Of a stretch of 64,000 nucleotides of DNA, positions 9,375-52,758 are shown piece by piece. The notes beneath the pieces were generated by a model, which ran no database searches, had not been told where the DNA came from, and saw only the letters and a program-made list of their open reading frames with translations. Location: assembly GCF_026210795.1 (NCBI RefSeq), contig NC_089453.1:2172501-2236500 (forward strand), written 5' to 3'. Position 1 is the stretch's first letter. Each line of letters starts with the position of its first letter. This DNA is from Rhizophagus irregularis (Eukaryota; Glomeromycota; Glomeromycetes; Glomerales; Glomeraceae). The position numbers were made by a program, and so were the translations under genes.

Positions 9375-9929
9375 AGGACCAGTAGCCTTGTTAGGGGGTA
9401 AAATTGAGTCAAGGTTGTGTGCTTCATAACGCGTTGTTACCCCTAGTCACGTGTAGAGTTACAATTTACTACGCCAGAAAATCATGTGGAAAATTAGGAT
9501 CTACTGTGCCCAACTGTGCCAAGCCGACCTAGCCGCAACCTATTTAGCCTATTATTTTTATTATATTTATTATATTAATTATATTTAATATAATCGATAT
9601 AATTATTTTATTTATCATATTTAATTTATTTATTACATCAGGAAGTTACGAAAAAAATGTACATTACATATACATTTATGCAAATCATATACATTGCAAT
9701 ATTCATTCTTTTTAATGTACAAGTAATATTTAACATTAATGAACATCATCAATGAAATTTTTATCATGATGTGCAGCATTTAATAATAAATATTCAATGT
9801 ACATATCTTTGCTATAATAAAAATATAATTACTAACTAGTAAATTTCAGTTAGTATTGATCGGTATCATGTGATCAGTTTGCCGATCGATCTTTTTTTTG
9901 ATAAAAAAAAAGTCTAATAAAAAACTTTA

Positions 9930-10145
9930 AACTTTTTTTTTCTCTTTCTTTCACTTCCCTTCATCCCCTTGTCCTTTCGTCCTTCTCCTATATCCTTCCC
10001 TTTCCTTTCGTCCTTCACTTCCCTTTCGTTCTTTTCTTTTTCTCACACCTGTAAGTTTTGTTACTTTTTTTTAATTTATTTTTTTTTTATTTTTTTTTTA
10101 ATTTTATCTTTTTTTTCATTTCTTTTCATTATTTTATTTTTGTAG
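9930..10145 (+). promoter_or_regulatory. Pyrimidine-rich leader of hairpin array 1
   Basis: A run of CCCTTTC/CCTTTCGTCC words (about 9940-10030) ends in CACACCT followed by GTAAGTTTTG, a consensus 5' splice site, and then a long T tract ending in GTAG at 10145. It has the layout of a first exon plus first intron. A similar CCCTTTC leader precedes array 2. Confidence 0.45.
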
Positions 10146-11752
10146 GACGTTTACTAGGGGGACGCTGGCTTGAATACTATGAAACCGGACTTTAAGGTAG
10201 TAAGAAACTGAAAAGGGGAAGATTTTTTGTTATTTTTAATTTAAGAAACGAACTAACGTTTCTCTTTATTATTTTATTTTTTGTAGGACGTTTACTAGGG
10301 GGACGCTGGCTTGAATACTATGAAACCGGACTTTAAGGTAGTAAGAAACTGGAAAGTGGAAGATTTTTTGTTATTTTTAATTTAAGAAACGATCTAACGT
10401 TTCTTTTTCATTGTTTTTTTTTTGTAGGACGCCAGCTTGTTCACGAAACCAGACTTTAAGGTAAAAAACTGGGAAAGGGGGATGGTGGAAGGGGATTTTG
10501 CAAAGAGGAACCAAGATTCATAAGAATCTTGGTTTTTTTTTGTTTTTTTTATTATTATGAAACGGTTTACTAACTGTTCCTTTCTTTTTTTTATAGGTTC
10601 GGTGTCTCGGAAGGGCTTCTGAAGAATGGAAAATGGAGAACTAAGGTTCGTAAGTATTATATTCAGTTACGAACCTTAGATTTATTTTTTTAATACTATG
10701 GACGGTTCTAACCGTTCTTTTTATTTTATTTTTTATAGGTTCTGTTGGGTGATCTTCCGAAGAACGGAAAACGGAGAACTAAGGTTCGTAAGTATTATAT
10801 TACGAACCTTAGATTTATTTTTTTAATACTATGAACGGTTCTAACCGTTCTTTTTATTTTATTTTTTATAGGTTCCGTCGGGTGGTCTTCCGAAGAATGG
10901 AAAACAAAAAACTAAAGTTCGTAAGTATTATATTACGAACCTTAGATTTATTTTTTTTAATACTATGAACGGTTCTAACTGTTCTTTTTATTTTATTTTT
11001 TATAGGTTCCGTTGGGTGGTCTTCCGAAGAACGGAAAATGGAGAACTAAGGTTCGTAAGTATTATATTACGAACCTTAGATTTATTTTTTTTTAATACTA
11101 TGAATGGTTCTAACCGTTCTTTTTATTTTATTTTTAGGTTTTGGGTTTCTCGGGTGTCTTCTGAAAAATGGAAAAAACCAAAATTCGTAAGTACGAATCT
11201 TTGGTTTATTTTTATTTATTTTATTATTATGAACGGTTTCTAACCGTTCTTTTCTTTGATTTTTAGGTTTCGGGTGGGCTTCTGAAGAACAGAAAACCCA
11301 AAGATTCGTAAGGACAATACGAATCTTTAATTTTTTTAATTTTTTTTGTTATTTCTAATTCTTTTTCTTCTTTTAGATCTTGGGTGGGTTTCTGAAGAAC
11401 GGAAAAAGAAGACGAATCTTAACGGATTGGTAAGTTTCGAAGATTTCAATTCACTTCGAAACTTGGATTTTTTTATTTTTCTTTTAGAAACGTAAACTAA
11501 CGTTTCTTGTTTGCTTTTTTTTTGTAGGATCTGGGATCACTCAGTTATATGGAATTTCGAAGGTATATACAGTACCTTCAAATTTTTATTTTTTCTAACG
11601 AAACGTTTTTACTAACGGTTTCATTTTTTTTTCTTTTGTAGGTCCAAGACGCGACTGGATCCTATTTCGAAGGTATATATATCCCTTCGAATTTTACTTT
11701 TTTTTATTTTTAACGAAAAGTTTTATTAATATTTTCATTTTTTTCTTTATAG
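10146..11752 (+). repeat. Array 1 of intron-like hairpin modules
   Basis: About 13 modules, the central ones 132-134 bp apart (exonlets start at 10739, 10872, 11006 and 11138). Each module is a 30-60 nt exonlet, a GTAAGT-type donor inside an inverted repeat, a second inverted repeat containing the branch-like CTAAC, a T-rich tract, and TAG. Example: the arms CTAAGGTTCGTAA (10779-10791) and TTACGAACCTTAG (10800-10812) enclose the donor region; GAACGGTT-CT-AACCGTTC follows. Polarity is + throughout. The exonlets are not consistently multiples of three, so a coding role is not supported. It lies inside the 9636-12078 element. Confidence 0.75.
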
Positions 11753-12078
11753 GTTTATTTTGGAAATCAATTTTTATCTAGTATTTAACATATTATATAG
11801 ATTTAAAATAGCCATAGATATTATATTAATTAGTTAATAATACATTTGTATAGTATAATGATAGTATAATAATAAATAACGCATGTATTTTAATATCATT
11901 AATAAATGTGTTAATTAATCGTAATGTACAGGTGATAAACATCTTTAATTTTGCGATGAACATCAAATGTTGTGACATCGGTAGTACATTGCAGGGTCCG
12001 ATGTTCAGCGTTTCTTTATGATGTACATCAAGTGACCGATGTACATTTGATGAATATTTTTCCCGTGACTTCCTGATG

Positions 12079-12404
12079 TATATTTATTATATTAGTTATA
12101 TTTATTATATTAGTTATATTTCTTATATTTATTATATCTATTATATTTATTATATTATTATATGTAGTAACTTTTATATAAATAACGTTGGTATTTTCCT
12201 TCGTTATAAGTTAAGTTCCTTCAGTTCGAATTAGTTTACCTTTGGTTCCTTAATTCTTATTCCTGTAATTATAAAGTTCTATAATAAAGTAAAACCTTTT
12301 ACACTATAAACGAACTCCCTATTTTAAGCGTGTCTTGTTTGATTGGATTTCAGTCATAGTTAAACGTACTTAATCTCCCTGACTGCAAATCATAGTTAAT
12401 CTAT
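12079..12404. other. AT-rich minisatellite and spacer
   Basis: TATATTTATTATATTAGT-type repeats occupy about 12079-12165. A similar TTATATTTATTA tract lies left of the element at about 9545-9635, so the element sits in one AT minisatellite. No gene seen in the rest. Confidence 0.5.
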
Positions 12405-28191: not shown

Positions 28192-28204
28192 TAATTAGTA
28201 TACC

Positions 28205-28330
28205 TTATATTTCTTCCTCAAAAGGTAAAATAAACCTAATATTTTTATCTTCAAATAACACGCAGTGATAATTCGTATTCCTATGTATAATGTAAATATA
28301 TATCCCTATTCCAATATTTTCAGTAGTCAT
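28205..28330 (-). CDS. 41-aa ORF between kinase and integrase
   Basis: ATG at 28330 starts two nucleotides after the TAA of the RNase H-kinase ORF. It encodes MTTENIGIGIYIYIIHRN... rich in Ile/Tyr and ends TAA at 28205-28207, 13 nt before the integrase ATG. No family recognised. It may be a real small protein or only a stepping stone for ribosomes moving to the integrase start. Confidence 0.35.
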   Translation of the reverse strand: MTTENIGIGIYIYIIHRNTNYHCVLFEDKNIRFILPFEEEI

Positions 28331-28332
28331 TT

Positions 28333-29607: not shown

Positions 29608-29616
29608 TAATTTTAT

Positions 29617-30654: not shown

Positions 30655-30737
30655 TTAAAATTTATTTATTATTTTATTTCTTATTATTATTTCAACAATT
30701 TTACATTTTGGAACAATTTTAACCTTTTTTATATAAT

Positions 30738-31319
30738 TTAATCCTCATTTTCACTAGATATTTCACTATCATCAGATGAACTTTCTTCACTTGAACTCTC
30801 ATTATCCTTCTGAAACTCATTTTCCTTTACTACTTCCTTATTTTCTTTCATCACTTCTTTTATCGTATATAGTCTCTTTCCCTCTTCTTGTTCATAATCG
30901 GATTCTTCTGATTCACTTTCATAGTCGGATTCTTCTGACTCTTCTATTTGTTTAATATACCACACAGGTATATCTATTATTTCTTCATCATTTTCTAATT
31001 CTAATATCCTTTCTTTATAGTTAATATTTGCGTTCCATTTATCCAATAAGTCATTTCCTATAATCATTTTTTTTTGCTTTGAATCTATTACATCTAATGT
31101 TACTGGTAATACTAATTCTCTATAAACTTTTATTTCTGTATTCACTTTTCCTAATGAAGCAATCTTTCCTCCATCTGCTAATGTACACGTAATATTACTT
31201 TTTCCCTTTATTGGTATATCTAACTCTTTTCTTAATTTCTCTGTTATTACACTTATTGCTGCTCCTGAATCTATTACAACTTCGATTTCCTTATCATTTA
31301 TTATAAACTGCGTTTTCAT
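30738..31319 (-). CDS. Retropepsin-like protease of gypsy element
   Basis: 193 aa aspartic protease: VIDSGAAISVI with catalytic DSGA near residue 17, and IIGNDLLDKW as the second conserved strand. It cleaves the polyproteins. The C-terminal third is a long acidic Glu/Ser tail (ESEESDYESESEES). It is in the same frame as Gag, and only one stop (TGA) lies between them, so it may be made as a Gag-protease readthrough product. Confidence 0.88.
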   Translation of the reverse strand: MKTQFIINDKEIEVVIDSGAAISVITEKLRKELDIPIKGKSNITCTLADGGKIASLGKVNTEIKVYRELVLPVTLDVIDSKQKKMIIGNDLLDKWNANINYKERILELENDEEIIDIPVWYIKQIEESEESDYESESEESDYEQEEGKRLYTIKEVMKENKEVVKENEFQKDNESSSEESSSDDSEISSENED

Positions 31320-31376
31320 TGCCGTCGTAACTTCTTTTTCTCCAATTATTTCGGTCTTTTTTACCTCCGAGTGTAG

Positions 31377-34280
31377 TCACTCTGTTTTATCTCCTTTTCT
31401 TATCATTTTCTTTATCATTCTTCCTTGTTGTTCCACAATATTAAGTAGATTTCCATAATCTACTGGATCTTTTGATTTAACTCCTATAATTTTATCTTCT
31501 CTTGGTCTGCGTTTTCCTCCTGCTTCTTTCCATCTATTTATTCCTTCCATTGTGTTATAATATTCTCCTCTCTTTTTACTCCATTTATATCTTTTTGGGA
31601 TATTCATATTATCTGGTCCTATTGGTCTATTATACATTGGTTGTTCATCTCCCATATATTCTTCCATTGGAACTTCTTTTCTATTTCTATATTTATATTC
31701 TTCCTTTCCCCTTTCCACAATTTCTTTATCTAAGTCCGGTTTTCCAAAGACTTTCCATCCTTGCACAGGGTTTAATCTATTGCTTCTTCTTCTTACTGGG
31801 TTGTCTTTTTCATACAAATCACGATTGTAATTATATAATTGTGGATCATCATATTCATTATTTTCATGGTCGTAATCATCATCTGATTCTTCATTTTCGT
31901 GGTCATAGTCTTCTTCATGGTCTTCTATATCCATTAAATTAACTCTTCTCTCATTTCTTCTAATATTATTTCCTAATGGACATCTAGTCGCAAAATGACC
32001 TCTTCTATTACACCTAAAACAAATTATTTCATCGTAGTTGATCGATGCTCTATTATTTCTTCTCTGATTCAATTGGTCTTTATTCCCATTATTATTTAAC
32101 TCCCTTTCCATATTTCGTACTTGTTTTTCTAATTTGGCAATTCTCATTTTCTCTAATTTTTCCACTAACTCGTCTTCATAATTCTCATTTAATGGTTTAT
32201 TATATCTGACATTCGTTTCAACATTCCGTTCTTCAATACGTTCTTTTCCAATCTCCAGATAAACTTTATCTGGTATATTTCCTGCTTTTCTAAATAATTC
32301 ATTTCTTGCTTCTTCTTCCCTTCTTGCTATATTTATTGCATCATTTAAATTTCCTGGGTTCTGTCTTCTAACTTGGTACCCTACTGTTGCTTCTAGTCCT
32401 TCAATATAAAAATCTACTTGATATTCGTCAGCTAATGCATGACCTCTTATCGCTATTCTTAATACTTGTCTAAATCTTCTCGTATAATCTTCAACACTTT
32501 CATTTATTCCTTGTTTAGTTTTTCTCAATTCTAACATTTTTCTTCTTCTAACATCTTCTCTGGTAAATCTTCTTTTAATTCTATGTTTCAAATCATTATC
32601 ATCATCTGCATCTGCCCAATTCCTTAAATTACCTGCATTCGTTTCTTTCATTTCATTATACCATTGTGCTGCTGCTCCTCTTAAATGTGCTGCTGCATAT
32701 GCCGCTTGTCTTTCACCATTTGCTCCTGCTGCTTTCCCAATTGCCGTAAATGCTACTTCGAATTGTCTAACCCAATCACTAACATCTTCTTCTTCTTTTC
32801 CATAAAATAATGGTATATTAATTATTCCTCCAGCTTCATTCCCTGCATTTTCAATCCTATCTATTAAGTGTGCTCCTGCTCCTATTGCTCTATCCAAAGT
32901 ATTAGGTGGATATCCTAAAGCATTCTCAACTATTCTTTTCATTTGATCTGCAGTCGCCATGTTCAACAATATATTCTCCTGAAATAAATCCTGTAAGTTG
33001 TAATCAGATAGTTCACTTTCTGTATCAGAATTTTCAATATCAGAATCCTTAATATTTAACGAATTATTCAAATCTGAATCTTGACTTAAGCCAAAACCTT
33101 CCGTATTTATAATATTTTCATCATTATTTTCAACTTCATTTTCATCGAAGTCTTCAGAATTTCCTTCCCAAATCTCGTATTCTTCTGGATCTAATATTTC
33201 TCCAATCTTTTCTGAATCATTTGTATCCTCTTCTTTCTCGTTGTTTTCCTCTGTCTCTATTTGTTCTTCTAAATATTTATCTAATATTTCTTTTATGACT
33301 CCTTCCACTTCATTCTTATTTTCTTGGAATAACTTTATAAACTTCCAATTTAAGATTTCTCCATCCGTGTAATCCATATTTATCATTCGTAATATTTCTC
33401 CTTCTGTTACTTCAACTTCTGCTCCTTCACATATTTTCTGTATTCTTTTTACTCTTAGTTCTGCTTCACTAACATCATTCTCCTCTTTCTCAGAACAACT
33501 TTTACATATTTCTCCTGTAAATTCTTTATCGTATTTTACTGCTTTTTTCTTCAGTATCATTTTGTTACATAACGGACATTCTGTGGCATTCGTAGTATAC
33601 CATCTTCTAAGTTCTCCAATTATCTCTTCATCATCTAATTCCTTAATTTTCATATAGTTCTCCATAAAATCCTTAGTTTTCATTATTTCATATTCCACTC
33701 CAAAATTTATTATTCGTCTTATTTCTTCGATATCAATTTCATAACCGTTTTCTAACCAATAATTTCTATATGTTCTTTCTATATGTTCATCTCCTTCATT
33801 CGAACTTAATTCTCCCATATCGTCTGAACTTTCTAGTTTTCCTACATCACTATATTCTTCAACAAAACCTTTAGTTTCTACAATTTTCTCTATTATCTTA
33901 TCTGTTAGATCGTCATTTATCCATGGTTTTGGGTATTCATTTATATCCCACCATTGATATGTTATACTTTTCTGAAACTTCTTGACTTCCTTTCTATTTT
34001 CTTCTTCTACTATATTTTCTTCTAAATGCAGTATTTCTTTGAAATATCTCATAGTACCATATCCTTTGTTTTTAATGGTTATTGATTCTATTTCGTCTAA
34101 CCATTCTTCAAATTTTGCAAATCTTATATCTAATTCGTCATCTTCTATAATATATCTGTATGTTAACAATTCCCTATTTCCTAATAAATTCTCTTCTGTT
34201 CGATCGTTTAATATAAACTCATTATCTTCACTCAATATGTAATGTTCACAGATCACTTTTATCACTGATATAATTCCCAT
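31377..34280 (-). CDS. Gag of gypsy element with long N-terminal extension
   Basis: 967 aa. The Gag core begins near Met441 (MATADQMKRIV): capsid-like region with IPLFYGKEEEDVSDWVRQFE, AAAQWYNEM and FYIEGL, then a basic coiled stretch and a CCHC zinc knuckle CFRCNRRGHFATRC (about residue 754). After the knuckle comes an Asp/Glu/His-rich segment. The first ~440 residues are an acidic extension unlike usual Gag, with a zinc-ribbon pattern CPLC (about 234) and CKSC (about 260). Gag forms the particle and binds RNA. The ORF ends TGA followed by CTA, a leaky stop context. Confidence 0.88.
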   Translation of the reverse strand: MGIISVIKVICEHYILSEDNEFILNDRTEENLLGNRELLTYRYIIEDDELDIRFAKFEEWLDEIESITIKNKGYGTMRYFKEILHLEENIVEEENRKEVKKFQKSITYQWWDINEYPKPWINDDLTDKIIEKIVETKGFVEEYSDVGKLESSDDMGELSSNEGDEHIERTYRNYWLENGYEIDIEEIRRIINFGVEYEIMKTKDFMENYMKIKELDDEEIIGELRRWYTTNATECPLCNKMILKKKAVKYDKEFTGEICKSCSEKEENDVSEAELRVKRIQKICEGAEVEVTEGEILRMINMDYTDGEILNWKFIKLFQENKNEVEGVIKEILDKYLEEQIETEENNEKEEDTNDSEKIGEILDPEEYEIWEGNSEDFDENEVENNDENIINTEGFGLSQDSDLNNSLNIKDSDIENSDTESELSDYNLQDLFQENILLNMATADQMKRIVENALGYPPNTLDRAIGAGAHLIDRIENAGNEAGGIINIPLFYGKEEEDVSDWVRQFEVAFTAIGKAAGANGERQAAYAAAHLRGAAAQWYNEMKETNAGNLRNWADADDDNDLKHRIKRRFTREDVRRRKMLELRKTKQGINESVEDYTRRFRQVLRIAIRGHALADEYQVDFYIEGLEATVGYQVRRQNPGNLNDAINIARREEEARNELFRKAGNIPDKVYLEIGKERIEERNVETNVRYNKPLNENYEDELVEKLEKMRIAKLEKQVRNMERELNNNGNKDQLNQRRNNRASINYDEIICFRCNRRGHFATRCPLGNNIRRNERRVNLMDIEDHEEDYDHENEESDDDYDHENNEYDDPQLYNYNRDLYEKDNPVRRRSNRLNPVQGWKVFGKPDLDKEIVERGKEEYKYRNRKEVPMEEYMGDEQPMYNRPIGPDNMNIPKRYKWSKKRGEYYNTMEGINRWKEAGGKRRPREDKIIGVKSKDPVDYGNLLNIVEQQGRMIKKMIRKGDKTE

Positions 34281-34330
34281 TTTTCTGTAATCTGATTTAT
34301 TTCTATACCTAATTGACCTTACGACTATAT

Positions 34331-34660
34331 CTAACAGTTTTCCCCTTCTTTTCTTATTTTCTCAAATTCTCTATTTCTTTTCTTTTTACTAGATGGATAA
34401 TTTTCTTCCCCATCCATTCTTGTTAGTACTATGTATTCCATTAATTTTACATATGTATTTCTGTTATAACTCATCGCTTCTAATATTACTTTTTGAAAAA
34501 TCTTCCAAAATCTTTTAAACCAATCTCCTATCTCTATTCCATCAGTACTATAACATTTTAGGCATGAAGGATCTACCTGATATTCTTTCTTTGACTCATT
34601 ATGTTTTTCTATTTCATGTCTATTTTTAATCTCTTCTAATTCATCATATATATCAGACAT
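34331..34660 (-). CDS. Small accessory ORF upstream of Gag
   Basis: 109 aa, Lys/Glu-rich, beginning MSDIYDELEEIKNRHEIEKH and ending with a basic KKKRNREFEKIRKEG tail. It holds one CLKC pair. It ends 50 nt before the Gag ATG. No family recognised. Being in the internal region of a young element with open neighbours it may be translated, but length alone does not prove it. Confidence 0.4.
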   Translation of the reverse strand: MSDIYDELEEIKNRHEIEKHNESKKEYQVDPSCLKCYSTDGIEIGDWFKRFWKIFQKVILEAMSYNRNTYVKLMEYIVLTRMDGEENYPSSKKKRNREFEKIRKEGENC

Positions 34661-37465: not shown

Positions 37466-38177
37466 TGTCACTCACGTCTGCCACCCGTGGATAAACACAT
37501 CTTTTACATTACACTTTATTTCTCGTTATTTCGCTTGGTTTAGATTTTATTTTTCTCTTAACTTCTCGCTTTCTTTCTCATGTATCTGTAGTATCTATTC
37601 TTTCAGATACTACCACTCATTCATAATATTCCCAAAATATTATTCTTTATGTAATATTTATTCTTTCAAATATTACCACTTTATTTCTTATAAACTGCGA
37701 GAGTTCTCCTAACTTCTTATTATATTTCATACAACAAAACGAGAATAACTTCTTTTACTTTACTTTTCTGGACTTAATAATATAATATTAATTAATTCTC
37801 AAGCGTACAATGAGCATATTCAAGATAACTTTTAATAATTAATATTTATTTTATTAAATTTGAGTCAAAACTGACTGCGGAATTCCTAACGAATCCCACC
37901 TATATTTATACATTTTTAAGAAAATTATTTCTACTATTTCTAACTTTTCTACTAATAAAAATTTAAGAACAATAAGTAAATAAAGATGTATTATCATATG
38001 ACTATCTCGTGACTAAACTAAACTAAACTATAAATATTATTTTATCGGTTAATTATTTATCCTTCGGCTAATTATTTATCCTTCGGTTAATTATTTATCC
38101 TTTGGTTAATTATTTATCCTTATTCCATTCGGTCTTTTATTCATCCACTCACGTAATTATCCTGATTTCTCGGGTTA
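37466..38177 (-). repeat. 5' LTR of gypsy element (main part)
   Basis: 712 bp from TGTCACTCACGTC to CGGGTTA; the final CA lies at 43472-43473 beyond the inserted element. Four copies of TTAATTATTTATCCTT-type minisatellite (38044-38120) against two in the partner LTR account for the 38-bp length difference. Confidence 0.93.
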
Positions 38178-38189
38178 CACAGGTCGAAG

Positions 38190-39350
38190 GGGCGCCATTG
38201 TCCAAAATTCAAAAAATGCAAATTCCCCATTTTCCTGGAAAATGGTGGGAAATTGTGGAAAATGCTGCATTACGCTGAGCAATTTTTTGGAATAGCATTG
38301 TTACAACATTGTCCGATTTAGCAAATCTTATGAAATTTTGGGAAAATGCTACATTATATCTCAAATGTAACATTTTTGTAACATTTCGTAACATTGTTAT
38401 AACATTGTCATTGAAATCAAATTTTGCTTTTTTTTTGTTAAATGTTCCAATTTTCTTGCAAATAGTGCATTTTTATGAAAATTTCACATTTTACTTCAAA
38501 TGTAATAACATTTAATAAAATTGTTATAACATTGTCAATTAAAATCAAATTTTGCTTTTTTTTTGTCAAATGTTCCAATTTTCTTGCAAATGGTGCATTT
38601 TTATGAAAATGCCACATTTTATCTTCAATGTGATATCATTGTAACAACATTTTATAAAATTGTTATAACATTGTCAATTAAATTCAAATTTTGTCAAATA
38701 TTCCGATTTTCTTGCAAATGGTATATTTTTTTATGAAAATTCTATATTTTCTGTCAAATGTTGCATATTTTCAGCAAATTTTACGTTTTTTTGGTCAAAA
38801 TGTTTCATTTTCGTCAGAATGTTAAGATTTTACATTTTTTTTTGAAAATGCTCAGTAATATAGCATTACACTGGAAAATGTAGCATTTCACCAAATTACA
38901 CTAAAAAGCATCACAATTATCTCATTTTTTGGAAAATTCCACATTACATTAAATTATACTAAAAAATGTAGCACTATACTAGATTATACAGCATTGCACT
39001 AAAATTACACTAGACAATGTAGCATTACACTAAAAAGTACCACAATTATCATATTTTTTAGAAAATTTCGTGTTATGCTGGAAAATGTAACATTATGCTA
39101 GAAAATTTGGAATTGCACTAAAAAATACCACAATTGCACTAGACAATGTAGCATTACACTAAAAAGTACTACAATTATCATTTTTTTTTTAAAAAATTTC
39201 GCGTTATACTGGAAAATGTAACATTATGCTAGAAAATGCGGAATTGCACTAAAAAACGCGGAATTGCACTAAAAAACACAAAAAAAATACTACAATTACA
39301 TTGGATAACGTAGCATTACACTTAATTACATTAAAAATTGATGATAATTT
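38190..39350. repeat. Left subterminal repeats
   Basis: About three diverged copies of a ~115-bp unit with AACATTGTTATAACATTG and ATGTTCCAATTTTCTTGCAA (38380-38720), then many copies of TGTAGCATTACACTAAA and GGAATTGCACTAAAAAA words up to 39310. Likely transposase-binding regions of the element. No ORF. Confidence 0.7.
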
Positions 39351-39479
39351 TTATTTATTTAATTACGTACATTATTAAATTTATAATATTTATATTTTAA
39401 ACGCATTATTTAACATTAAACACATTGTTAATATAACACGATGTGTTGTGATGTAATTTAATACTAAACCTTACTACTG

Positions 39480-39830
39480 AAGACTCCCTCTTTTTTGTCA
39501 CTATAAACAGGCGGAGGGAGCAGCAATGGCTCTCCCCCTATAGGTACTTTATGACCTCTACCTGTTTACAGAGGAGGGGCTTTTCGTAAAGTATTAGTTA
39601 ATAGATATATATATATGTATATATAAGCATATATATACATCTATTTAAAATTATTAAAATAAAAAAAAAAAATTCCGGGGCGGGGGAAAGCCCCTATTTA
39701 TATAAAATTATATATCACGTGCGTCACGTGATATTACTTAATAATTACCGCAGCTTCAGCTGCAATATAACGAAAAAAAAAATTAAGCTTTTTTTAGCAA
39801 AAGCTTAATTTTTTTTTCTCACGTCCTCTT
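39480..39830 (+). promoter_or_regulatory. Hairpin-rich region before array 2
   Basis: Contains GGAGGGAGC...GCTCTCCCC (39510-39538), TATATATATGTATATATA tracts, CACGTGCGTCACGTGAT (two CACGTG-type motifs, 39716-39733) and AAGCTTTTTTTAGCAAAAGCTT (39785-39806). The position ahead of the leader suggests a promoter; this is inference. Confidence 0.35.
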
Positions 39831-40080
39831 TCTTTCTTCCCTTTCCCCTTTCCCTTTCGTTCCCTTTCCCTTTCCCTTTCGTTCTCCCCTCCCTTTCGTT
39901 CCATTTCCCCTTTCCCTTTCTCCTCCTCCTTTTTCGTTTCATTTCCCCCTTTTCTCCCCTCCATTTTCCCTTTCCCTTTCGTTTTCTTCCTCCCTTTTCG
40001 TTTCATTTCCCTTCCCTTCGCCCTTTTCCCTCTCTTTCTCTTCCCTTCCCCTTTCCCTTCCCAGAAAATTCCAACGAAAT
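39830..40080 (+). repeat. Pyrimidine tract, leader of array 2
   Basis: CCCTTTCCCTTTCGTTCCC-type repeats ending CCAACGAAATG just before the first GTAAGT donor at 40081. An opposing purine tract (GAAAGGGAAAGG words) lies at 41540-41730 inside the same array, so the two could pair or form triplex-type structures. The long Lys/Arg/Glu ORF on the opposite strand is a product of this repeat. Confidence 0.6.
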
Positions 40081-42293
40081 GGTAAGTTTCAAAGCGTTCG
40101 CTTCGAAACTTTTAATATATTTTTTTTAATTTCTTTTAGGAAACGTTTCTAACGCTTCCTATACTCTCTTTTTTTTTAGATCTCGATATTCAATTTCGGA
40201 AATTTAGGAAATTAAGGGTAAGTTTCGAAGCGAGTTCGCTTCGAAACAGTGTTTTTTTTTTAATTTCTTTAGGAAACGTATTTAACGTTTCTTATTTTTT
40301 TTTTTGTGTAGGTCCTTCGGCATGCTTCTTTGGGATTCGAAATGGTAAGTTTCGAAGCATATGCTTCGAAACTTTTTGAAAATTTTTAATTTCTTTAGGA
40401 AACTTTTCTAACGTTTCCTTTCTTTCTTTTTTTGTGTAGGTCTTTCGGTATTCGACTTCGGGAAGCAAGGAACCGAAAGGGTAAGTTTCGAAGCGTTTTG
40501 CTTTGAAACTTTTTAAAAAAAATTATTTTTTTTTAATTTTTTGTAAGGAAACGTTTCTAACGTTTCCTATTTTTTTTTTGTAGAGATTTTTCGATATTCG
40601 ACTTTGGAAGGCGAATCGGTAAGTTTCGAAGCGTGTTGTTGTACGCTTCGAAACTTTTAAGAAAAAAATTTTTTTCTTTTTTTTGTAAGGAAACGTTTCT
40701 AAGTTTCCTTTTTCTTTTTGTAGGAACGCCGGATGTTTGGATGATGAGTTCGAAACGAACCGGTGAGTTTCGCAACATTGTGTTGCGAAACTTTATTTTT
40801 ATTTATTTCTTTTTAAGAAACGTTAACTAACGTTTCTTTATTTTACTTTTTGTAGGTTCCGGACGTTAGGATGATGGTAAGTTTCGCAATGTTACATTGC
40901 GAAACTTAATTTTTATTTTTTTATTATAAGAAACGTTTATATTAACGTTTCTTTTTTACTTTTGTAGGTTCCGGACGTTAGAATGATGGAAACGAACTGG
41001 TAAGTTTCGCAATGTTACATTGCGATACTTAATTTTTTATTTTTTTATTAAAAGAAACGTTAACTAACGTTTCTTTCCTTCTTTTGTAGGTTCCGGACGT
41101 TTGGATGAAACGACCCGGTGAGTTTGCAACGAATCGTTGCGAAACTTAATTTATTGTTTTTTTTTAAAGAAACGATATTAAACGTTTCTTTCCTTTACTT
41201 TTTGTAGGAACGCCGGAACGAATTCACGAACCGGACTTTGGGTGGAAGGTAATAAAGGGAATTTTGTTTTTGTTTATATTTTTTTCTTTATTTCTTAACG
41301 AAACGTTAACTAACGTTTCAATTTTTTTATAGATCACCTTAACATCCACTTCTGCCAAATTGGAACTAAAATGGTTAAGAAGTTCAAAAAGAAAGTGCTT
41401 GGCAAAGGTGAATGAATTGAAGAACCCATCCAAGTAATTGGAGGAGACAAAGGAAACTCCAGGCATTTGGTGGGGTGTTCTTTTATTATATAACGAAACA
41501 TTATTTAAGTTTCGTTTATTTTTTGTTTTTTTATAGGTTAAAGGAATGAAAGGGAAAGGTGAGAACGAAAGGAAAGAGAAAGATGAGAACGAAAGGGAAA
41601 GGTGAAAAATGAAAGGGGAATGTGAAAAATGAAAGGGGAAGGTGAAAAATGTAAAGGAAAAGAGAAAACGAAAGAGAAGACGAAAGGGAAGGGTGAGAAC
41701 GAAAGGGAAAGGAAAAACGAAAGGGAATATTTCGAAAGTATACTTTGAAATTTTTTTATTTTATTTTTCAACGAAGTGTTTATTAACGCTTCATTTTTTT
41801 TTTTTAGGTTCGGCGGCCATTGGACAGACCGGAATTCAATATTTCGAAGGTATACTTCGAAATATTTTTTATTTTTATTTTTTTCAACGAAACGGTTATT
41901 AATGTTTCATTTTTTTTTCTTTTTTAGGTTCAGCAGCTCATTGGACGTATGGAATTCAACATTTCGAAGGTATGTAACTTCGAAATGTTTCTTTAATTTA
42001 ATTTTTTTCACGAAACATAAATTAATGTTTCGTTTTTTTTCTTTTTTAGGTTCAGCGGCTTATTGGACGTATGGAATTCAACATTTCGAAGGTATATAAC
42101 TTTGAAATGTTTCTTTAATTTAATTTTTTTCATGAAACATAAATTAATATTTCGTTTTTTTTCTTTTTTAGGTTCAGCGGCTTATTGGACGTATGGAATT
42201 CAACATTTTGAAGGTATATAACTTCGAAATATTTCTTTAATTTATTTTTTTTTACGAAACGTATATTAATGTTTCATTTTTTTTCTTTTTTAG
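40081..42293 (+). repeat. Array 2 of intron-like hairpin modules
   Basis: About 15 modules of 115-140 bp: exonlet, GTAAGT/GTGAGT/GTATGT donor, hairpin, second hairpin with CTAAC-like branch sequence, T tract, TAG. Donor hairpins differ in sequence but keep pairing: arms AAGTTTCGAAGCAT/ATGCTTCGAAACTT (40347-40374), AAGTTTCGCAATG/CATTGCGAAACTT (about 40878), AACATTTCGAAG/CTTCGAAATGTT (41958-41989). In the last four modules the 5' arm is exonlet and the donor lies in the loop. The second hairpins follow GGAAACGTT-TCT-AACGTTTCC (40547-40567). Four final exonlets are each 42 nt; others are 21, 28, 32, 33 and 41 nt. The middle (41250-41540) is less regular. Confidence 0.75.
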
Positions 42294-42429
42294 GTTTTCT
42301 ATTTTGGCACTGGTGCGGATTATCCATAGATTATCGGATATCTGATAAATATAGATTATCGTTAAATAATAATAATTGTGCATTTATTAATAAATAAAAT
42401 TATAATAGATTATAAATCAGTGTTTTAAA

Positions 42430-43440
42430 TTGTCATGGCGTTTACACTAAATTGTTTAAAATTATTACTAAATTTCGCTCAATTGTCCGAAAATTTCACT
42501 CAATTATCTGAAATTATTGCAAAATTTCACTAAATTATCTTCGAAAATGTTGCATTTATATCGTTTACACTCAATTGTCCAAAATTGGTAAAACATTTTC
42601 ACTCAATTGTCCGAAATTATCCTAAATTTCACTAAATTATTCAAAAATCTAGCTAACATTTACCAAAAAAATGCAAAATTCACCACAATTTTCCACAATT
42701 TGTATTACGTTTGCACAACATTGCTGAAAAATTCACCTAAATTTTCAACAATTTACATAATATTACTAAAAATACACTACAATTTACCACTATTTGCATT
42801 ACGTTTGCATAACATTACTAAAAATTTAACTAAATTTACCACAATTTGCACTTCGTTTGCATAGCATTACTAAAAATTTAACTAAATTCACCACAATTTA
42901 CATTATGTTTACATATAATTACTAAAAATTTAACTAAATTCACCACAATTTGCACTTCGTTTGCATAGCATTACTAAAAATTTAACTAAATTCACCACAA
43001 TTTACATTACGTTTACATATAATTACTAAAAATTTAACTAAATTCACCACAATTTGCACTTTGTTTACATAACATTACTAAAAATTTAACTAAATTCACC
43101 ACAATTTGCACTTCGTTTGCATAAAATTACTAAAAATTTGCCTAAAATTCACCACAATTTACATTACGTTTGCATAAAATTACTAAAAATTTAACTAAAT
43201 TCACCACAATTTACACTTCGTTTGCATAACATTACTAAAAATTTGCCTAAAATTTCCCACAATTTAATGATAATTTACTGAAAAATTTCTCAACATTTGA
43301 ATTAGGAATTCTGTAGGAATTCCGCCATTTTGACAAAATTTGCCAAATTGTAAGTCCTCCATTATCCCAAAATTGTAACACAATTTACCTCAATTTACCG
43401 GGATAATTCTCAATTTGCCAGAAAAATTCCAGGCAAATTT
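42430..43440. repeat. Right subterminal repeats
   Basis: Roughly nine copies of a ~60-bp unit containing AAAAATTTAACTAAATTCACC and ACAATTTGCACTTCGTTTGC, in direct orientation, from 42720 to 43260, with more diverged copies on both sides. Corresponds in position to the left subterminal block of the same element. No ORF. Confidence 0.75.
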
Positions 43441-43477
43441 TGCGACAATGACATCTGTTCGACCTGTGTTACAACGT

Positions 43478-45129: not shown

Positions 45130-45890
45130 CAATCAGACAATTTAATGAAAATCCAGAAAAAAATCATCATATTTGATTGACGGCTGATTGATGCTAGTTG
45201 AAATCAAAAAAAAATCAGACAAATGGCAAATCAACCTAAAATTTGCCCAATATTCAAATATGTACTTTCAATTTATGGAAAATTGACAATTCAATAAAAA
45301 TTCAATAAAAATTCAATAAAAATTTGGCAAAAAATCATTATATTTGATTGACGGCTGATTGATGCTGGTTGAAATCAAAAAAAAAAATCAGACAAATGGC
45401 AAATCAACCTAAAATTTGCCCAATATTCAAATATGTACTTCCAATTTATGGAAAATTGACAATTCAATAAAAATTCAATAAAAATTCAATAAAAATTTGG
45501 CAAAAAATCATTATATTTGATTGACAACTGATTGATGCTGGTTGAAATCAAAAAAAAATCTGACAAAATGACAAATCAACCTAAAATTTGCCCAATATTC
45601 AAATATGTACTTCCAATTTATGGAAAATTGACAATTCAATAAAAATTCAATAAAAATTCGATAAAAATTTGGCAAAAAATCATTATATTTGATTGACGGC
45701 TGATTGATGCTGGTTGAAATCAAAAAAAAAATCTGACAAAATGACAAATCAACCTAAAATTTACCCAATATTCAAATATGTACTTCCGATTTATAGAAAA
45801 TTGATAATTCAATAAAAATTCAATAAAAATTCAATAAAAATTCGGCAAAAAATCATTATATTTGATTGACGGCTGATTGTACAAAAAAAG
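45130..45890. repeat. Left subterminal repeats of CACTA element
   Basis: Four direct copies of a 170-180 bp unit (GATTGACGGCTGATTGATGCTGG, AATCAACCTAAAATTTGCCC, AATATTCAAATATGTACTTCC, then (AATTCAATAAA)3). Copies begin near 45171, 45349, 45519 and 45691. Expected binding region for element proteins. Confidence 0.85.
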
Positions 45891-46013: not shown

Positions 46014-49000
46014 TTATAATTGGTATTTTCTACTAATTGGATTTACGGCTAAATACTCTCTTGCATTTTGCCGGTTTGAGATTTGGTAACTTACTGGTAC
46101 AAATCTACCTAAAATATGATGCACAGGTATTATACAATCCCGACTTATTGGATAAAATTCGGTATTCCACAACTCAACATTACAAATTTCATCACTGCTG
46201 AAATAGTATCGAATATTGGTTGAATTTGCGTGTTTATACCAACGAACGTATGCTAGAAAATGTTCGACGGGACCATCCGGAAAGTCTACTACGTGAGTAA
46301 AATAATACTGAATTTGACCTGGGTAGATGTCAACATCTTCATCATCCGTAATAAATTTCGCTAAGACGTACGAACTTTTTACATGTCTTAACGATAATGA
46401 CAATCCAAAGACTTCTGAACCAATCCGACACCTTCCGAATTGGTTAATTTTGACCCTAATTATTATATCGTTATCTAAACCTTCTACAAGAGGCCTCCGA
46501 AATCCAAATGATTCGTAAGTCGCATTGTAATATTCGACTATTAAATTTAACATTTCACTTGAAAGTAGTATATTATGAGATACCGGCTTAAGAAATTCAC
46601 CTGGGAAGCCTTCTTTGCCAGAAATATGTGAATCTTTAATATTTTGTGAATTCAGCCAAAATTGATGCATCTCATCTGACGAAAATTCATCAGTAACTGA
46701 AAGGGACCCGATAGTACGCTGACTGTTTAGCAATTCAAGACCTTTTACTTCGATACCTGAACTTATGATATTTTCGATTTGTTTATCAAACATTAATCGA
46801 CGCATAAGTTCAGACTCAATTTTCCTGTTGCTGTTTGGTAACGAACCTAAAAGTGCGAAATCAATAAATTATAAGCTAATATTGAAATCGTTAAAATCGT
46901 TAAAAAATCGTTAACGGATATTTACCTAAAATACCGTTCATACGTTCGAAAGAGAAACACCAGAACGCATATAATGGTCCATAATCAGATGAGCAATCAC
47001 GCAAATGCAGAGAAAGATGAAGATTCAGTGTGATCTTATCTCTGCCGTGGTGATTCTCAATGAGCTTGACTATTTCGATAAGACTTCTATGGGCTTCATC
47101 CACCAAATTAGATTCTAGAATCCGATTTACCAAAATTGAACAAACCCTGACAAAATGATTCAGGATTCTTCTATTTACGTCTGAAAGGTGTTCCCAAAGT
47201 GATACAGTTGAATAAATTGTAAAGAATATTCGCCACTGATCAGCTGTAAAATTGGTGAATCCCTCTCCACTATGAATTTTTCCTGGAATTCGACCTAAAT
47301 CGGATGGTATCTGAAACTCATCCATCTTTTTCTGAATTTTGTTCAAAGAATTTGGTGTCAAAATACCCCCATCGATCCAAATTCGTTTTACTATCCACTT
47401 CGCAATGCCTAGAAATAAGCAATGCATTGGATCGACTGTAATAAATCTAATAGGGTCAAAATATGATAGACGCAACAATTCGGACCATCTAACGCCAGTT
47501 TCTTTGACGAAGCACTTTCTAGCAGCGTCTGAGTTGCATCTTCGCCAACCTAATGCGTTTTGCCGGTGCTCATTCGAATCTCGAGCAGAATACCCTACAT
47601 CATCCATTCCAGCAAAATTATGCTGCCCATTTTCATAATTTGCTTTTTTCTCACACCTGTGACATGAAACTAAGGCAGAAACATGACCGCAAATTTTTCT
47701 TGCGGCGGGAATGTCACATGATACTAAGATTAAAGCGCCACAAACTCTCTTTCCATTTTCGCATTCATAAGTACGATTTAGTGTTAATCCAGCCCAGAGT
47801 GTTTCCAATTCGTTAACTATTGGTGCTAAATAGTGGTTCACTTTATATAGGCTGACCTCCTTTGGCCCAGGTAAAATGCCGAGAGTCAATAAATTTTCAC
47901 GTCTAAATCGGATATCGCGTGGCAAATTGCATATAGCGGCGTATATGACACCGATACTATAAATGGTACTATCATATGGCTGAAACCAATCAAGATTCAG
48001 CATCAAGCCAAGATGAGAATCGGCCACTTCGCTTCTGAAAAAATTTGGCGAATCTTCATTGTCCGATTCTTTAAAATTCTTCCACACTTGCCCATCATAT
48101 ATATCGGTCAAAATATTATCAAAATTTGACCGATTAGCCCAATGTCAGAGAGAATTTTCAAACCCAGGCCGACAAAACATAGTGGCAAGTTGTTGATTGA
48201 TTCCAGCAAACGGATACATTAAATTAGGTCGTATTATTGTTCGATTTGTCAATGCGCTAATTTTTTCAGACAATGCCGTATTGCAAAGACGTGATCTGTG
48301 AACTGAAGAATTGGGAAATTCTATGTATTGACATTTTATTATAGCAGGATTGTCCTCTTATTTGAAATCTACCACTTCCTCTTTTTTATACAATTTGTGA
48401 CATTTCGGACAAGATACAAAACTATGAAATTGGTCATTTAATCCAAGCTTCTTTCTTGTTAAGTAAAGCGAATCTGGGAAATCATTAAAATCGTCACTAC
48501 TGAACTCGCACAGGGCCAATTTCATAAATTTTATTAGAGTCTCAGTAGCTGTCTCTGCGATATTGAATCTTGTTCGAAAGTTCATTATCCAAAGTAAAAT
48601 CCATAAAAATCGATTATAATTCGATTCTAAATATGGTGGGTTTTGAAATGGTTCATAACTAGGTGGTGAATGGTCTTCAAAAATTTCAGAAATTCCAGAA
48701 ATTGGATCATTATCTGATTCACTGCCTATAGACAATGTATCACTGTAGATATCTTCCTCTGTAGTATATTCGGATGATGATGAATCTTCTGGATCTTCTG
48801 AAATTTCCGGACGATTTGTATACTTTCTTGCACGTTGTCGAGGTAAGAAGTTAAATTCAACATCTTGATGTTCATCATCAACATCATCTTGATTACTGTT
48901 ATCTGATTCTTCCGATTCTTGTCTAATAGATTCATCAATCATTCGTCCAGCTGAAGCGGGTATTGATGTTTCACCTATTTCAAGTTGACGAACTTGAGAC

Positions 49001-49269
49001 GAAATTGTACCTTGCGAATCTTGGTATTCTTGATGTCTAGAATCGTGAATTTCTTTTGTGCGAGAATCCACCAAGTTGCCATCACAATCAGGACAATTAC
49101 AAACTACTAGTTTTCTTTTATTACTTGTTGGTCTAGCAGAAGATACTATTTCTTCGTTTATTATACCAGAAATTGATCTATTTCTACGAGTAGAAGATGG
49201 CTGATTTGAAGGTGATTCTTCATCATCAAGATCTTCAAGTATACTAGAGACTGACCTTTTTCTGCTCAT
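46014..49269 (-). pseudogene. Tnp2-type CACTA transposase, two stops
   Basis: N-terminal part (49269-48358) is acidic/Ser-rich with two zinc-type Cys clusters (CNCPDCDGN...H, CPKCHKLY). The same frame continues past TAA (48358-48360) through NLMYPFAG and FCRPGFENSL, past TGA (48145-48147) to the Tnp2 core: TDIYDGQVWKNF, LMLNLDWFQPYDSTIYSIGV, AICNLPRDIRF, GILPGPKE, CDIPAARKICG and DPMHCLFLGIAKWI. Exon 1 ends at 46926; exon 2 is 46846-46014 after an intron ending TTTTAG, joining NGILG to SLPNSNRKIE. Both stops could arise from one C-to-T change (CAA to TAA, CGA to TGA). Tnp2 proteins cut the element ends. Confidence 0.9.
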
Positions 49270-49795
49270 TTGTTTAGTGTTTGAATAAGTTTAATAAGTT
49301 TGGCAAAATCCAAATTTGTTAAAAGGCCGATTTTTATAAAATTTGGAATAACACAAAATTTGTATAATTTGTATGTATAATTAATGTAATCCTGGCTTCT
49401 ATGATTATTTCAATAATTTTTTAGGATTTAATATTTTTTTTTCGCAAATTTGGCAATTTTATATAATAAATTTGCGAATTTTCTAATTAATATACTTTTA
49501 AAAATTGCAATATAATTTAAGCTTATTTTACAATAAAAAGCTTATTTTTAAAATAAAAAGCTTATTTTATTTTAAAATAACTTTTATTTACAAGATAATC
49601 ACTTTATCATCCCTTTATCATTTTCGGATGCCAAACAAACCTTATCAAAAGAAACTGTAAATTTTAGCGAAAGTTGAAAAGTAACAATTTTGTATTAATC
49701 GAAGTGGTATTGCTATAATAACAATATATTTTCGATTTTACTGCAAATTTCGACAAAGTATAACTTGCCGCATTAAAGTATATCAAATTTTAACG
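49270..49795. other. Divergent upstream region
   Basis: AT-rich segment between the transposase start and the hairpin repeat array. AAGCTTATTTTA-type repeats occur at 49518-49570. Probably holds the transposase promoter; no ORF. Confidence 0.4.
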
Positions 49796-50275
49796 CAGTA
49801 GAACGCTAACAATTTTCGTAATTTTAATTTATTTGTCTTTTTAATTATGATTTATAATTGATTTTTCAATCGAGAAATCAACGCAGGACGCTAACGATTT
49901 TCTTATTAATTAATTTATTTGTCTTTTTTAATTATGATTTATAGTTGATTTTTCAATTGAGAAATCAACGCAGGACGCTAACGATTTTCTTATTAATTAA
50001 TTGATTTGTCTTTTTTAATTATGATTTATAGTTGATTTTTCTCGAGAAATCAACGCAGTAGAACGCTAACGATTTTCTTATTAATTAATTGATTTGTCTT
50101 TTTTAATTATGATTTATAGTTGATTTTTCAATCGAAAAATCAACGCAATAGGACGCTAACGATTTTCTTATTAATTAATTTATTTGTCTTTTTTAATTAT
50201 GATTTATAGTTGATTTTTCAATCGAGAAATCAATGCAGTAGAACGCTAATGATTTTCTTATTAATTAATTGATGA
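49796..50275 (+). repeat. Six-copy 86-91 bp hairpin repeat, shared promoter region
   Basis: Six direct copies with GCTAACGATTTTCTTATTAA, TTAATTATGATTTATAGTT and an inverted repeat GTTGATTTTT-CAATCG-AAAAATCAAC (cleanest at about 50123-50148). CTAAC starts near 49806, 49891, 49978, 50066, 50156 and 50247. It ends 25 bp before TATAAATAG (50286-50294) and the accessory-gene ATG, so it probably acts as an upstream activating or protein-binding array. Confidence 0.75.
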
Positions 50276-50300
50276 TTTTTAAATTTATAAATAGGATGAT

Positions 50301-52758
50301 ATGACGATATTGAACCCGCTTCGATTTTTTAAACGAATATTGAGTGAATATAAAATGTCAAATAATAGCAATAATAAAAAAAACAATAAAAAAAATAACA
50401 AACAAAAGCAACAGAGGTTTCAAGAAGAAACACCTGACGAAGGATCTAATCGTCAATGGGGAAGAATGGAAGAAGAAAGTAATCCGAATGAGACGAGTGA
50501 CAAGACCAATAAGTCGACTAGCAAATCGTCACCCACCAAGTCAAACAAACAAAAGCAGCAAAGGTTTCAAGAAGAAACACCGAGCGAAGGATCTAATCGT
50601 CAACAGGGAAGAGCGGAAGAAGAAAGTGATCCGAATGAGATGAGTGACAAAACCAATAAGTCGACTAGCAAATCGTCACCCACCAAGTCAAACAAACAAA
50701 AGCAGCAAAGGTTTCAAGAAGAAACACTGAGCGAAGGATCTAATCGTCAACGGGGAAGAGCGGAAGAAGAAAGTGATCCGAATGAGACGAGTGACAAAAC
50801 CAATAAGTCGACTAGCAAATCGTCACTCACCAAGTCAAACAAACAAAAGCAGCAAAGGTTTCAACAAGAAACACCTGACAAAGAATCTAATCATCAACGG
50901 GGAAGAACAGAAGAAGAAAGTAATCCGAATGAGACGATTGACAAAACCAATAAGTCGACTAGCAAATCGTCACCCATCAAGTCGATCCTCAAATCTGCAA
51001 AGTCGACTAAGCCGACTCAAGAAGAGTCTGATGATGAGGTTATAGAAATTGAACCGCCAAATATTCCTAAAGGTAATTGAATTTTGGAAAATTGCTGATT
51101 GACATGTACGATAATTAATAATTTTTATAGATCAACAAAAGATGTTATCGGAAATGAAAAAACGATATGGGAATATTCGAATTCCACAAAAATTCGTATT
51201 AGTGGTTAAAGACGATCAAGGTAATGAAAGGATGATCGATGATGACGATACTGATTTAGAAGCAGGTACAATTTTGACTTCATTCGTATAAATTCAGAAT
51301 TATTCGTAAAAAAATATTACTATTAATAAAATTCTTTATTTAGAAAATCTAAAATTAAAGAAACAAATTGAAGAAGTACAAGTAGAGAATGCAAAGCTTC
51401 AACGCGAAAATAACCGATTATTCGATGAAAATCGTTTTTTGACTTGAATAAACGAGGCCTTTGCAGACGAGAATGACGATCTACGCGAAAGCTTAAACAG
51501 GTATTTGAGAATCCGTCTGCCTAAAGCCATTCATAGGCAGATGGATCTCGAACAGCCGGCAAAACGTCAAAAAAGAATTAAGACAAAAAAGTCCGAGCGA
51601 TACGAGGAAGAATCGGAGGAAGAAAGGTCTGGTTCTAACAATAATGATGAGTACGACGAAAAAGAAGCTAGGGTATATTAATTTTATTTGTCTGATTCAG
51701 TTATTTAAAATTGCAGTATTGAGTAATTAAGTACCAGTTATCATTATTTGATTGTTATATTTAGGCTGAAATGAAGTCTATTTTGAAAACCATCGATGAA
51801 ACTCGAGGACTAGATTACAATGAAACATTCAATAGCGCGAAAAATCTCAAGATTCGTCGTAAGCTAGTCCCTAAATTGCGTTCAGCCCTTGCTCTGTGTT
51901 TTCCTGCTTCGAATAAGCAACTTACAAAATGGTTGGGTTGTCTCCACAAGTCTCGTCGTTCTCATCAAAGATTAATGGATAGGGGAAAAGCCGATGAAAA
52001 TAAACACCGGATGCACTCAAACAATCGAGTACACGACGTTAGTAATGATTTATAATTATTATGCTGAATTTTATTCCGATTATGTATTGAATTTTATTCA
52101 AATTATAACGTATTTTAGAAGAAAATCCGCTGAATTAAGGCGGCAAAGAGATTATATAGTTTTGACGATGAACGGATAACAAAATATGATAAGCGTAGAT
52201 TACTAAAGATGTTATCCAATCGCTTATTTCATTCTCCAGAAATAAGCGAGACAGACGAAGAAGACCCAACAAAGTCTATAATCGCTATTTACGACTATTC
52301 GTGGAGATCTGATGAGGTTAGAACTTCTGAATCTTGATTTTTCAGACGAATCGCTGGATTTAATTTTTATATTTTATTGTTTCTTCAGCTTAAAAATTTG
52401 CTACGAAATGTACTCGATGTACACTCGTCAAATAAATCGAAATTAATACGAGAATGTAGATATGACGACGAGGTACAAAAATACGACCGACCACATCCGT
52501 CGAATGCTTCCGAATGGTCTTATATTGTACAACAACAAGATTTAATATTCGATATATACTGATATCGATCAGGGTTTAATCACTGAATATGATGAAGAAG
52601 AAGAAGAAGTTAGTAGAGGGACAACACCAGCAACTGGCAACACCACCGAAAATGATGAAGACCATAACAAGGAAGGAGAAGAAAAACCATCAAAATCAAC
52701 GGTCGGCGACAATCATAATAATTCAGATTCTGATTTACATATGGACGACGCGCAATGA
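50301..52758 (+). pseudogene. CACTA accessory protein gene (TnpA-like role)
   Basis: Exons 50301-51072, 51131-51265, 51344-51672, 51765 to about 52036, 52119-52316 and about 52389-52758. The N-terminal half contains four tandem 50-residue repeats (KQKQQRFQEET ... SNRQRGRAEEES ... KTNKSTSKSS), strongly charged and polar. Next comes a coiled coil (ENLKLKKQIEEVQVENAKLQ) and a basic C-terminal region. Stops: TGA 51445-51447 within the coiled coil and TGA 52131-52133 after KKIR; a one-base frame change near 52556. Both TGAs fit CGA changed to TGA. By position in a CACTA element it corresponds to the second, DNA-binding protein; that role is inferred. Confidence 0.65.

Follow-up and report, generated by a model that had tools for sequence, protein, structure and literature searches.

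Organization of the locus

The window, i.e. the whole stretch of DNA that was analysed, comprises 64,000 nucleotides of Rhizophagus irregularis. Between 40082 and 42293 we parsed 14 introns (GT, T-rich tract, AG) and delimited two damaged or atypical modules by hand from their hairpins, which gives about 16 intron-like modules in total (Table 1). The modules are 62–105 nt long and are separated by exonlets of mostly 21–42 nt. The introns carry U2-type signals: GT donor, branch motif, T-rich tract and AG acceptor.

The first-pass annotation had placed the array at 40081–42293. This span covers the array, but the element itself occupies 38178–43468, since BLAST of ten-kilobase loci around the copies reveals a common element with sharp ends at these positions. 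Of the 15 copies with both ends, 14 have identical 3-bp flanks on the two sides, and the remaining copy fits 4 bp. In the array alignment, identity to the window copy is 94% or higher in eight of 15 copies and 77–91% in seven. Left and right ends pair at distances of about 4 to 9 kb among the matches listed, with 8–9 kb relatives for example at C20:1734464–1742780 and C8:4581036–4589826. CACTA/EnSpm transposons are defined by a terminal inverted repeat (TIR) starting with CAC, a 2–3 bp target-site duplication and subterminal repeats. The array element is similar to them in all three respects, with TIRs that begin with CAC and a 3-bp duplication, and by these criteria we take it to be CACTA/EnSpm-like. 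However, no transposase was seen between 38178 and 43468, and the core of the element is an intron array. A non-autonomous CACTA/EnSpm element would depend on a Tnp2-type transposase from an autonomous relative with matching ends. Inspection by eye found no PF02992 or PF18759 match between paired element ends genome-wide, among the matches listed. CACTA/EnSpm (CMC) TIR transposons have been reported in R. irregularis (PMC8647823, PMC11075540).

The double CACGTG palindrome upstream of the array may be a promoter element. The sequence TCACGTGA is present in 11 of 15 loci scanned, including L021, L024, L027 and L028, four loci in which the ends of the 38178–43468 element were not found. In RNA, the complementary CT-rich leader and GA-rich stretch would enclose the array's first part. 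There were no Rfam matches at the gathering score in the window, and a known Rfam family was rejected for the array, as 39900–42400 gave only three sub-threshold matches, all to unrelated families.

Elsewhere in the window, the Ty3/Gypsy-like element 27004–34361 has an RNase H ORF (28333–29616, minus strand) ahead of its integrase ORF; the RNase H ORF contains a P-loop kinase-like stretch (thymidylate kinase PF02223, E 1e-4, below the cut-off). To the right of the array element lie ORFs at 46014–49290 (minus strand), where 46900–48144 matches the Tnp2-type transposase PF02992. Tandem arrays are located at 45158–45879 (about 173 bp), 49792–50270 (about 90 bp) and 53003–53514 (about 22 bp), and the ORF 50295–51080 (plus strand) has 147-bp repeats coding KQKQQRFQEETPDEGSNRQ-like units.

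Table 1. Coordinates of the intron arrays, their hairpins (HP1, HP2) and the carrier elements in the window
Feature	Position	Strand	Remarks
Array 1, second TIR element	9634..12080	+	TIR TACATCAGGAAGT; introns of similar type, HP1 mainly of class c
Target-site duplication TTA, left	38175..38177	.	flank comparison
TIR DNA transposon, 5.29 kb, array as core	38178..43468	+	ends common to dispersed copies
Left TIR CACAGGTCGAA	38178..38188	+	
Left subterminal tandem repeats	38379..38761	.	128 bp period
Double CACGTG palindrome TCACGTGCGTCACGTGA	39715..39731	.	upstream of array
CT-rich leader	39830..40059	+	complementary to 41539–41738, E 1e-17
Intron 1	40082..40179	+	HP1 40084–40111, decayed in window copy, intact in consensus
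Intron 2	40218..40311	+	HP1 40222–40247, HP2 40270–40294
Intron 3	40345..40439	+	HP1 40347–40374, HP2 about 40397–40421; exact junction in annotated protein
Intron 4	40481..40583	+	HP1 40483–40511, HP2 40546–40568
Intron 5	40619..40723	+	HP1 40621–40656, HP2 40687–40710
Intron 6	40763..40855	+	HP1 40765–40793, HP2 40815–40838
Intron 7	40877..40967	+	HP1 40878–40908, HP2 40928–40953
Intron 8	41000..41089	+	HP1 inner 8 bp 41007–41025, HP2 41051–41076
Intron 9	41118..41207	+	HP1 41123–41143; exact junction in annotated proteins
Intron 10	41249..41332	+	no convincing HP1, HP2 41300–41319; exact junction in annotated proteins
Intron-like module, hand-delimited	41475..41536	+	hairpin 41492–41516; annotated models match 41408–41536 instead
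GA-rich stretch	41539..41738	+	complementary to CT-rich leader
Intron-like module, hand-delimited	41738..41807	+	donor-in-loop HP1 41729–41751 (donor damaged in window copy), HP2 41773–41792
Intron 13	41850..41927	+	donor-in-loop HP1 41838–41866; exact junction in annotated proteins
Intron 14	41970..42049	+	donor-in-loop HP1 41958–41989, HP2 42010–42033; exact junction in annotated proteins
Intron 15	42092..42171	+	donor-in-loop HP1 42080–42111; exact junction in annotated proteins
Intron 16	42214..42293	+	donor-in-loop HP1 42205–42230, HP2 42256–42275; exact junction in one annotated protein
Right subterminal tandem repeats	42752..43265	.	52 bp period
Right TIR TTCGACCTGTG	43458..43468	-	
Target-site duplication TTA, right	43469..43471	.	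flank comparison

Splice junctions in annotated gene models

With the spliced 3' exonlets as a query, 10 proteins are matched at E up to 0.1, all from R. irregularis, the best with 99% identity across the whole 90-residue query. Eight of them carry peptides across GT-AG junctions of element copies, and the window introns that occur exactly in such proteins are indicated in Table 1. The gene models also include several skipping junctions and some at unpredicted sites (e.g. 41559–41635). The match of annotated gene models to several junctions supports transcription and splicing at the array junctions, with the reservation that the repeated modules leave some assignments ambiguous and that the models may be ab initio. 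We consider the transposon-borne introns very probably real.

Two hairpins at the splice signals

Most modules contain a hairpin that includes the donor (HP1), and most also have a second hairpin over the branch motif (HP2), which the first-pass annotation lacked. HP1 occurs in three classes. In class a the donor lies within the 5' arm (TAAGTTTCGnnn). In class b the donor is in the loop and the 5' arm is the exonlet end. In class c, which is typical of Array 1, the 5' arm is formed by the exonlet end plus GTA. Typical HP2 arms are GAAACGTT..AACGTTTC or GAACGGTT..AACCGTTC, and the loop or the 3' arm includes a CTAAC-like motif. The modules expand in tandem, and neighbouring modules have arm sequences in common.

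Array 1 lies in an element that differs from the 38178–43468 element and has further copies. Its site is TATATT-rich, and its class c introns are followed by class a and donor-in-loop modules. One Array 1 copy (L029) has a flank that resembles another array.

Stems that differ between modules with the pairing kept had been proposed earlier, and we found all three types: AAGTTTCGAAGC (40347–40374), AAGTTTCGCAATG (40878–40908) and ATTTCGAAG (within 41838–41866). The 12-bp stem AACATTTCGAAG/CTTCGAAATGTT with the loop GTATGTAA at 41958–41989 is exact, and the third pair is T-A at 41838–41866 and C-G at 41958–41989, as described. In the last module (42202–42233) the window copy reads a C·A mismatch at the third pair. 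The G-U wobble noted at 42080–42111 is present; however, it is private to the window copy and the ten-copy consensus is fully paired there, so it is decay of this transposon copy and not a structural signal.

The hairpins recur throughout the 146.7-Mb, 32-contig genome. The pattern GTAAGTTTCGN{3,18}CGAAACTT has 326 + 341 = 667 matches and AAGATTCGTAAGN{0,12}CGAATCTT has 343 + 294 = 637, both counts spanning the two strands with fully palindromic sites counted twice, and neither reversed control has any. For GAAACGTTN{0,10}AACGTTTC there are 947 palindromic sites against 1 in the reversed control. In a first set of 46 nonredundant introns, collected blind to structure, HP1 of at least 7 is present in 35 and HP2 of at least 7 in 25; at most 1 of 100 shuffles matched HP1 in 28 introns and HP2 in 15. 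In a larger structure-blind set of 149 introns from the array loci, 99 have HP1 of at least 8 bp and 90 have HP2 of at least 7. These fractions describe array introns, with HP2 biased upward, because the loci were chosen by similarity to the window arrays (L009–L032, L039–L050) or by the HP2 pattern (L033–L038, L051–L058). Among 20 host-gene introns of AAA-ATPase genes, which are heuristic predictions and a few of which are of doubtful extent, one has HP1 and one has HP2. The pattern counts, the shuffles and the host-intron control speak against chance hairpins.

Covariation of the hairpin arms

In an alignment-free arm-swap test on 145 introns, the own helix scored 8.72 against 6.05 with foreign arms for HP1 and 6.59 against 4.33 for HP2, with 0 of 5000 permutations as high in either case. 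This test ignores relatedness, and it used 145 of the 149 introns, with one minus-strand match in the window and three introns from L037 omitted.

Relatedness is considered in an R-scape-like null in which the tree is retained together with the number of substitutions on each branch (200 simulations with 42 class a introns, 4,000-odd column pairs). The class a pair 10-22 (A-T, C-G, T-A) has no equal among the null pairs of the 200 simulations. The second-best pair, 10-20 (E 0.26), is non-structural, and E is 3 and 4 for the two structural pairs that follow. Four of the 46 nonredundant introns were left out of this set as lying outside the family or being unalignable, and as they have weak or no HP1 (3–7), their omission favours the hairpin. 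The arms were also registered on constant motifs, a step that removed sequences in which the motif was absent or the arm too short (16 of 69 in class a, 6 of 52 in class c and 29 of 145 for HP2). The expected class a pairs then rank 1, 4, 5, 6, 11 and 13 of 66 (best E 0.12), and those of class c rank 1 (E 0.018) and 2 (E 0.13) of 120, with the other six low. For HP2 the expected pairs all have E of 3.5 or more, and E is 1.2 for the best of the other pairs. Expected against other pair scores give p = 1.4e-5 for class a, 0.21 for class c and 3.5e-5 for HP2.

Parsimony over ten resolutions of the class a tree yields 13–16 double changes from one Watson-Crick (WC) pair to another on 12–14 branches, mostly one pair per branch, against 1–3 doubles ending unpaired. 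When the partners are slid by one or two columns, 1–3 paired and 1–8 unpaired doubles are counted. Single changes led from WC to unpaired in 29 cases and to G-U in 17. In class c there are 9 WC-to-WC doubles against 5 ending unpaired and in HP2 8 against 5, the slid controls giving 2–5 paired doubles in both. A poorly resolved tree can inflate such counts, a flaw that the slid control shares. If no tree is used and only the WC pair types present in two or more sequences are counted, the six class a positions require nine switches of type.

Hence, phylogeny leaves the covariation of HP1 class a standing, with a modest strict per-pair signal. Covariation with phylogeny taken into account had been named beforehand as a test of the earlier proposal; HP1 class a survives it, but class c and HP2 are weaker. 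A donor within a conserved hairpin with compensatory changes, as expected of a regulatory donor hairpin, is thus found for HP1 class a and more weakly for class c.

Conservation and decay

The consensus of ten related copies was compared with a second subfamily of four copies. It replaced the window copy as the reference, since changes private to the window copy inflate the young counts, and L026 was excluded because an insertion made it too long. In the consensus the delimited stems are paired, one starting with G-U, and only the window copy has the lesions at 40084, 40483, 41123, 41729, 42080 and 42205. The private rate is 0.0187 in HP1 stems against 0.0126 in intron spacer, and the stems decay after insertion of the copies. 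Between the subfamilies, HP1 stems differ at 0.087, intron spacer at 0.213 and exonlets at 0.226, rates to which badly aligned modules add noise. The ratio of fixed to private changes is 20:51 in HP1 stems against 110:77 in spacer (p = 1.3e-5). In HP2 stems it is 40:46, not significantly different from spacer (p = 0.067), and in exonlets 81:121 (p = 2.6e-4 against spacer). The ratios of HP1 stems and exonlets do not differ significantly (p = 0.087); the lower subfamily difference makes the HP1 arms less diverged than the exonlets.

The tree-aware compensatory changes of class a, the arm-swap test and the contrast of private and fixed changes with the intron spacer agree with the earlier claim of selection on donor pairing. 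We suggest that HP1 pairing is likely under selection at the RNA level.

Possible role of the hairpins in splicing

The array introns fold more stably than the host introns (−0.16 to −0.23 against −0.12 kcal/mol per nt, p = 8e-10), and in a single predicted fold of 40060–41340 five of nine HP1 and seven of ten HP2 form wholly or mostly. The predicted mean unpaired probability at the donor is 0.22 in class a against 0.40 in host introns (p = 0.003). For all array introns together no difference in predicted accessibility from host introns is seen, at either the donor (p = 0.86) or the branch (p = 0.64). Modelling of yeast introns indicates that stems within about 10 nt of the 5' splice site or 20 nt of the branch point cannot form in complex A, and probing in yeast is reported to find structure depleted at true splice sites (PMC12350175). 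If the yeast complex A is a guide, this complex could assemble on the array introns only after the hairpins had opened, which speaks for a kinetic role; insulation between the modules is a reasonable competitor. We propose the following scheme.

Step 1: The array is probably transcribed and forms the core of a young mobile element. It is a unit of many introns, spread by a TIR transposon, in which coding constraint is not visible. In most of its introns, two hairpins are predicted to form locally in the RNA; the 5' splice site lies within one, and the other holds the branch motif in its loop or 3' arm. Active element lineages would keep these hairpins because they act in the pre-mRNA.

Step 2: The hairpins may form before the spliceosome binds and would set when, or which of, the many near-identical donors and branch sites get used.

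Step 3: The folded introns would slow or condition splicing, favouring intron retention or exon skipping.

A transposon-spread intron array whose hairpins act in pre-mRNA splicing is the best overall explanation that we can offer, and we regard the case for it as evenly balanced. An effect of the hairpins on the rate or choice of splicing may hold or fail with similar probability. A delay of splicing in particular is possible but more tentative, the donors of classes b and c being partly or wholly in the loop. The original interpretation, selection on RNA structure to delay or control splicing, is thus partly supported as a whole.

The loop position of the class b and c donors would also suit hairpins that insulate rather than delay, folding each donor and branch site with its own intron, so that pairing and splicing between modules are prevented and loop donors stay readable by U1. 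Class c donors are indeed predicted to be more open than host donors (means of 0.56 and 0.40), and the arm sequences common to neighbouring modules make cross-module pairing possible. However, adjacent modules often have the same stem, which gives no insulation by sequence, and the annotated gene models include skipping junctions; we consider insulation rather improbable.

The arms are also DNA palindromes in tandemly expanded modules. Template switching, gene conversion or a DNA-binding protein might have created them and maintained their perfect match, with their position at the splice sites being historical. This would agree with older stems not clearly favouring GU over CA mismatches, a shift with p = 0.052 in HP1 that is absent in HP2 (p = 0.80). 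Yet the placement on donor and branch motif recurs array after array with different stem sequences, the class a doubles are mostly single pairs on separate branches and not replacements of whole arms, and the intron spacers do not have HP1-like conservation. An origin or upkeep of the arms at the DNA level seems unlikely.

The ten annotated proteins and the last exonlets, 42 nt long and open in three frames, would fit a gene for a repeat protein encoded by the exonlets, with incidental hairpins. We disfavour this reading and hold it to be very unlikely, as the codon changes show no coding constraint: in the best frame, 3 synonymous and 28 non-synonymous codons are changed with no third-position excess (in an alignment poor in places), only three exonlets before 41249 (33, 39 and 21 nt) are multiples of three, exonlets diverge about as much as intron spacer (0.226 and 0.213), and the matching gene models use different frames. 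Most improbable are introner-like elements, each intron being its own mobile unit with a stable fold, as near-identical, stably folded introns genome-wide might suggest; introners are single introns at new sites in host genes, but the array loci inspected are tandem modules of introns and exonlets spread in TIR elements with target duplications at the TIR ends, and HP1 occurs in one of the sample of 20 predicted host-gene introns.

Returning to hairpins that act in pre-mRNA splicing, this arbuscular mycorrhizal fungus might have a separate class of spliceosomal introns that occurs genome-wide, in which selected hairpins hold both the donor and the branch point. Such introns would have multiplied in tandem, and at least two families of TIR transposons, which differ in their ends, would have spread them. 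By means of the folded introns a transposon could control the timing of splicing or redirect it, for instance steering its transcripts through or away from intron-sensing RNA silencing. We put forward this broader proposal as a somewhat doubtful one. In Cryptococcus, stalled splicing reportedly feeds RNA silencing. Small RNAs have been reported to be produced at transposon loci of R. irregularis (PMC8647823). A link between the array introns and silencing is speculation.

Studies of local structure at splice sites usually deal with single sites. The R. irregularis genome contains roughly a thousand natural donor hairpins (two exact stem patterns alone give 667 and 637 matches, some sites twice), and related modules that change in sequence and keep their pairing are a natural experiment on the selection of splice-site folding. 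They also bear on why a transposon would carry a series of introns in which coding constraint is not visible. Of the R. irregularis transposable elements, two-thirds are reported as unclassified (PMC11075540), and the array elements would give part of these an identity.

Comparison with known systems

In searches of open-access full texts we found no earlier report of such intron arrays. The closest parallel to HP1 is the splice donor hairpin of HIV-1, which is reported to mask the 5' splice site from U1 (PMC4974535) and is likewise a local hairpin containing the 5' splice site. However, it concerns one retroviral donor with reported masking, whereas the array hairpins are derived from sequence, occur in the majority of introns within a tandem array that a fungal DNA transposon carries, and are accompanied by a hairpin at the branch site.

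The zipper and downstream stems of yeast are similar in that they lie in short spliceosomal introns, where they can affect splicing. They are located between the splice signals, with structure on the true signals depleted, whereas the array hairpins sit on the signals (PMC12350175).

Strong predicted secondary structure is also described for the introner-like elements and stwintrons of filamentous fungi and for the (AC)m-(GU)n introns of zebrafish, and one stwintron consensus has a small hairpin that pairs a donor with a branch element (PMC9024468). The array resembles them as a family of similar, strongly folded introns. Unlike these introns, which are described as folding largely end to end and as residing in host genes, the array introns form two separate local hairpins and belong to transposon-borne tandem modules (PMC9024468).
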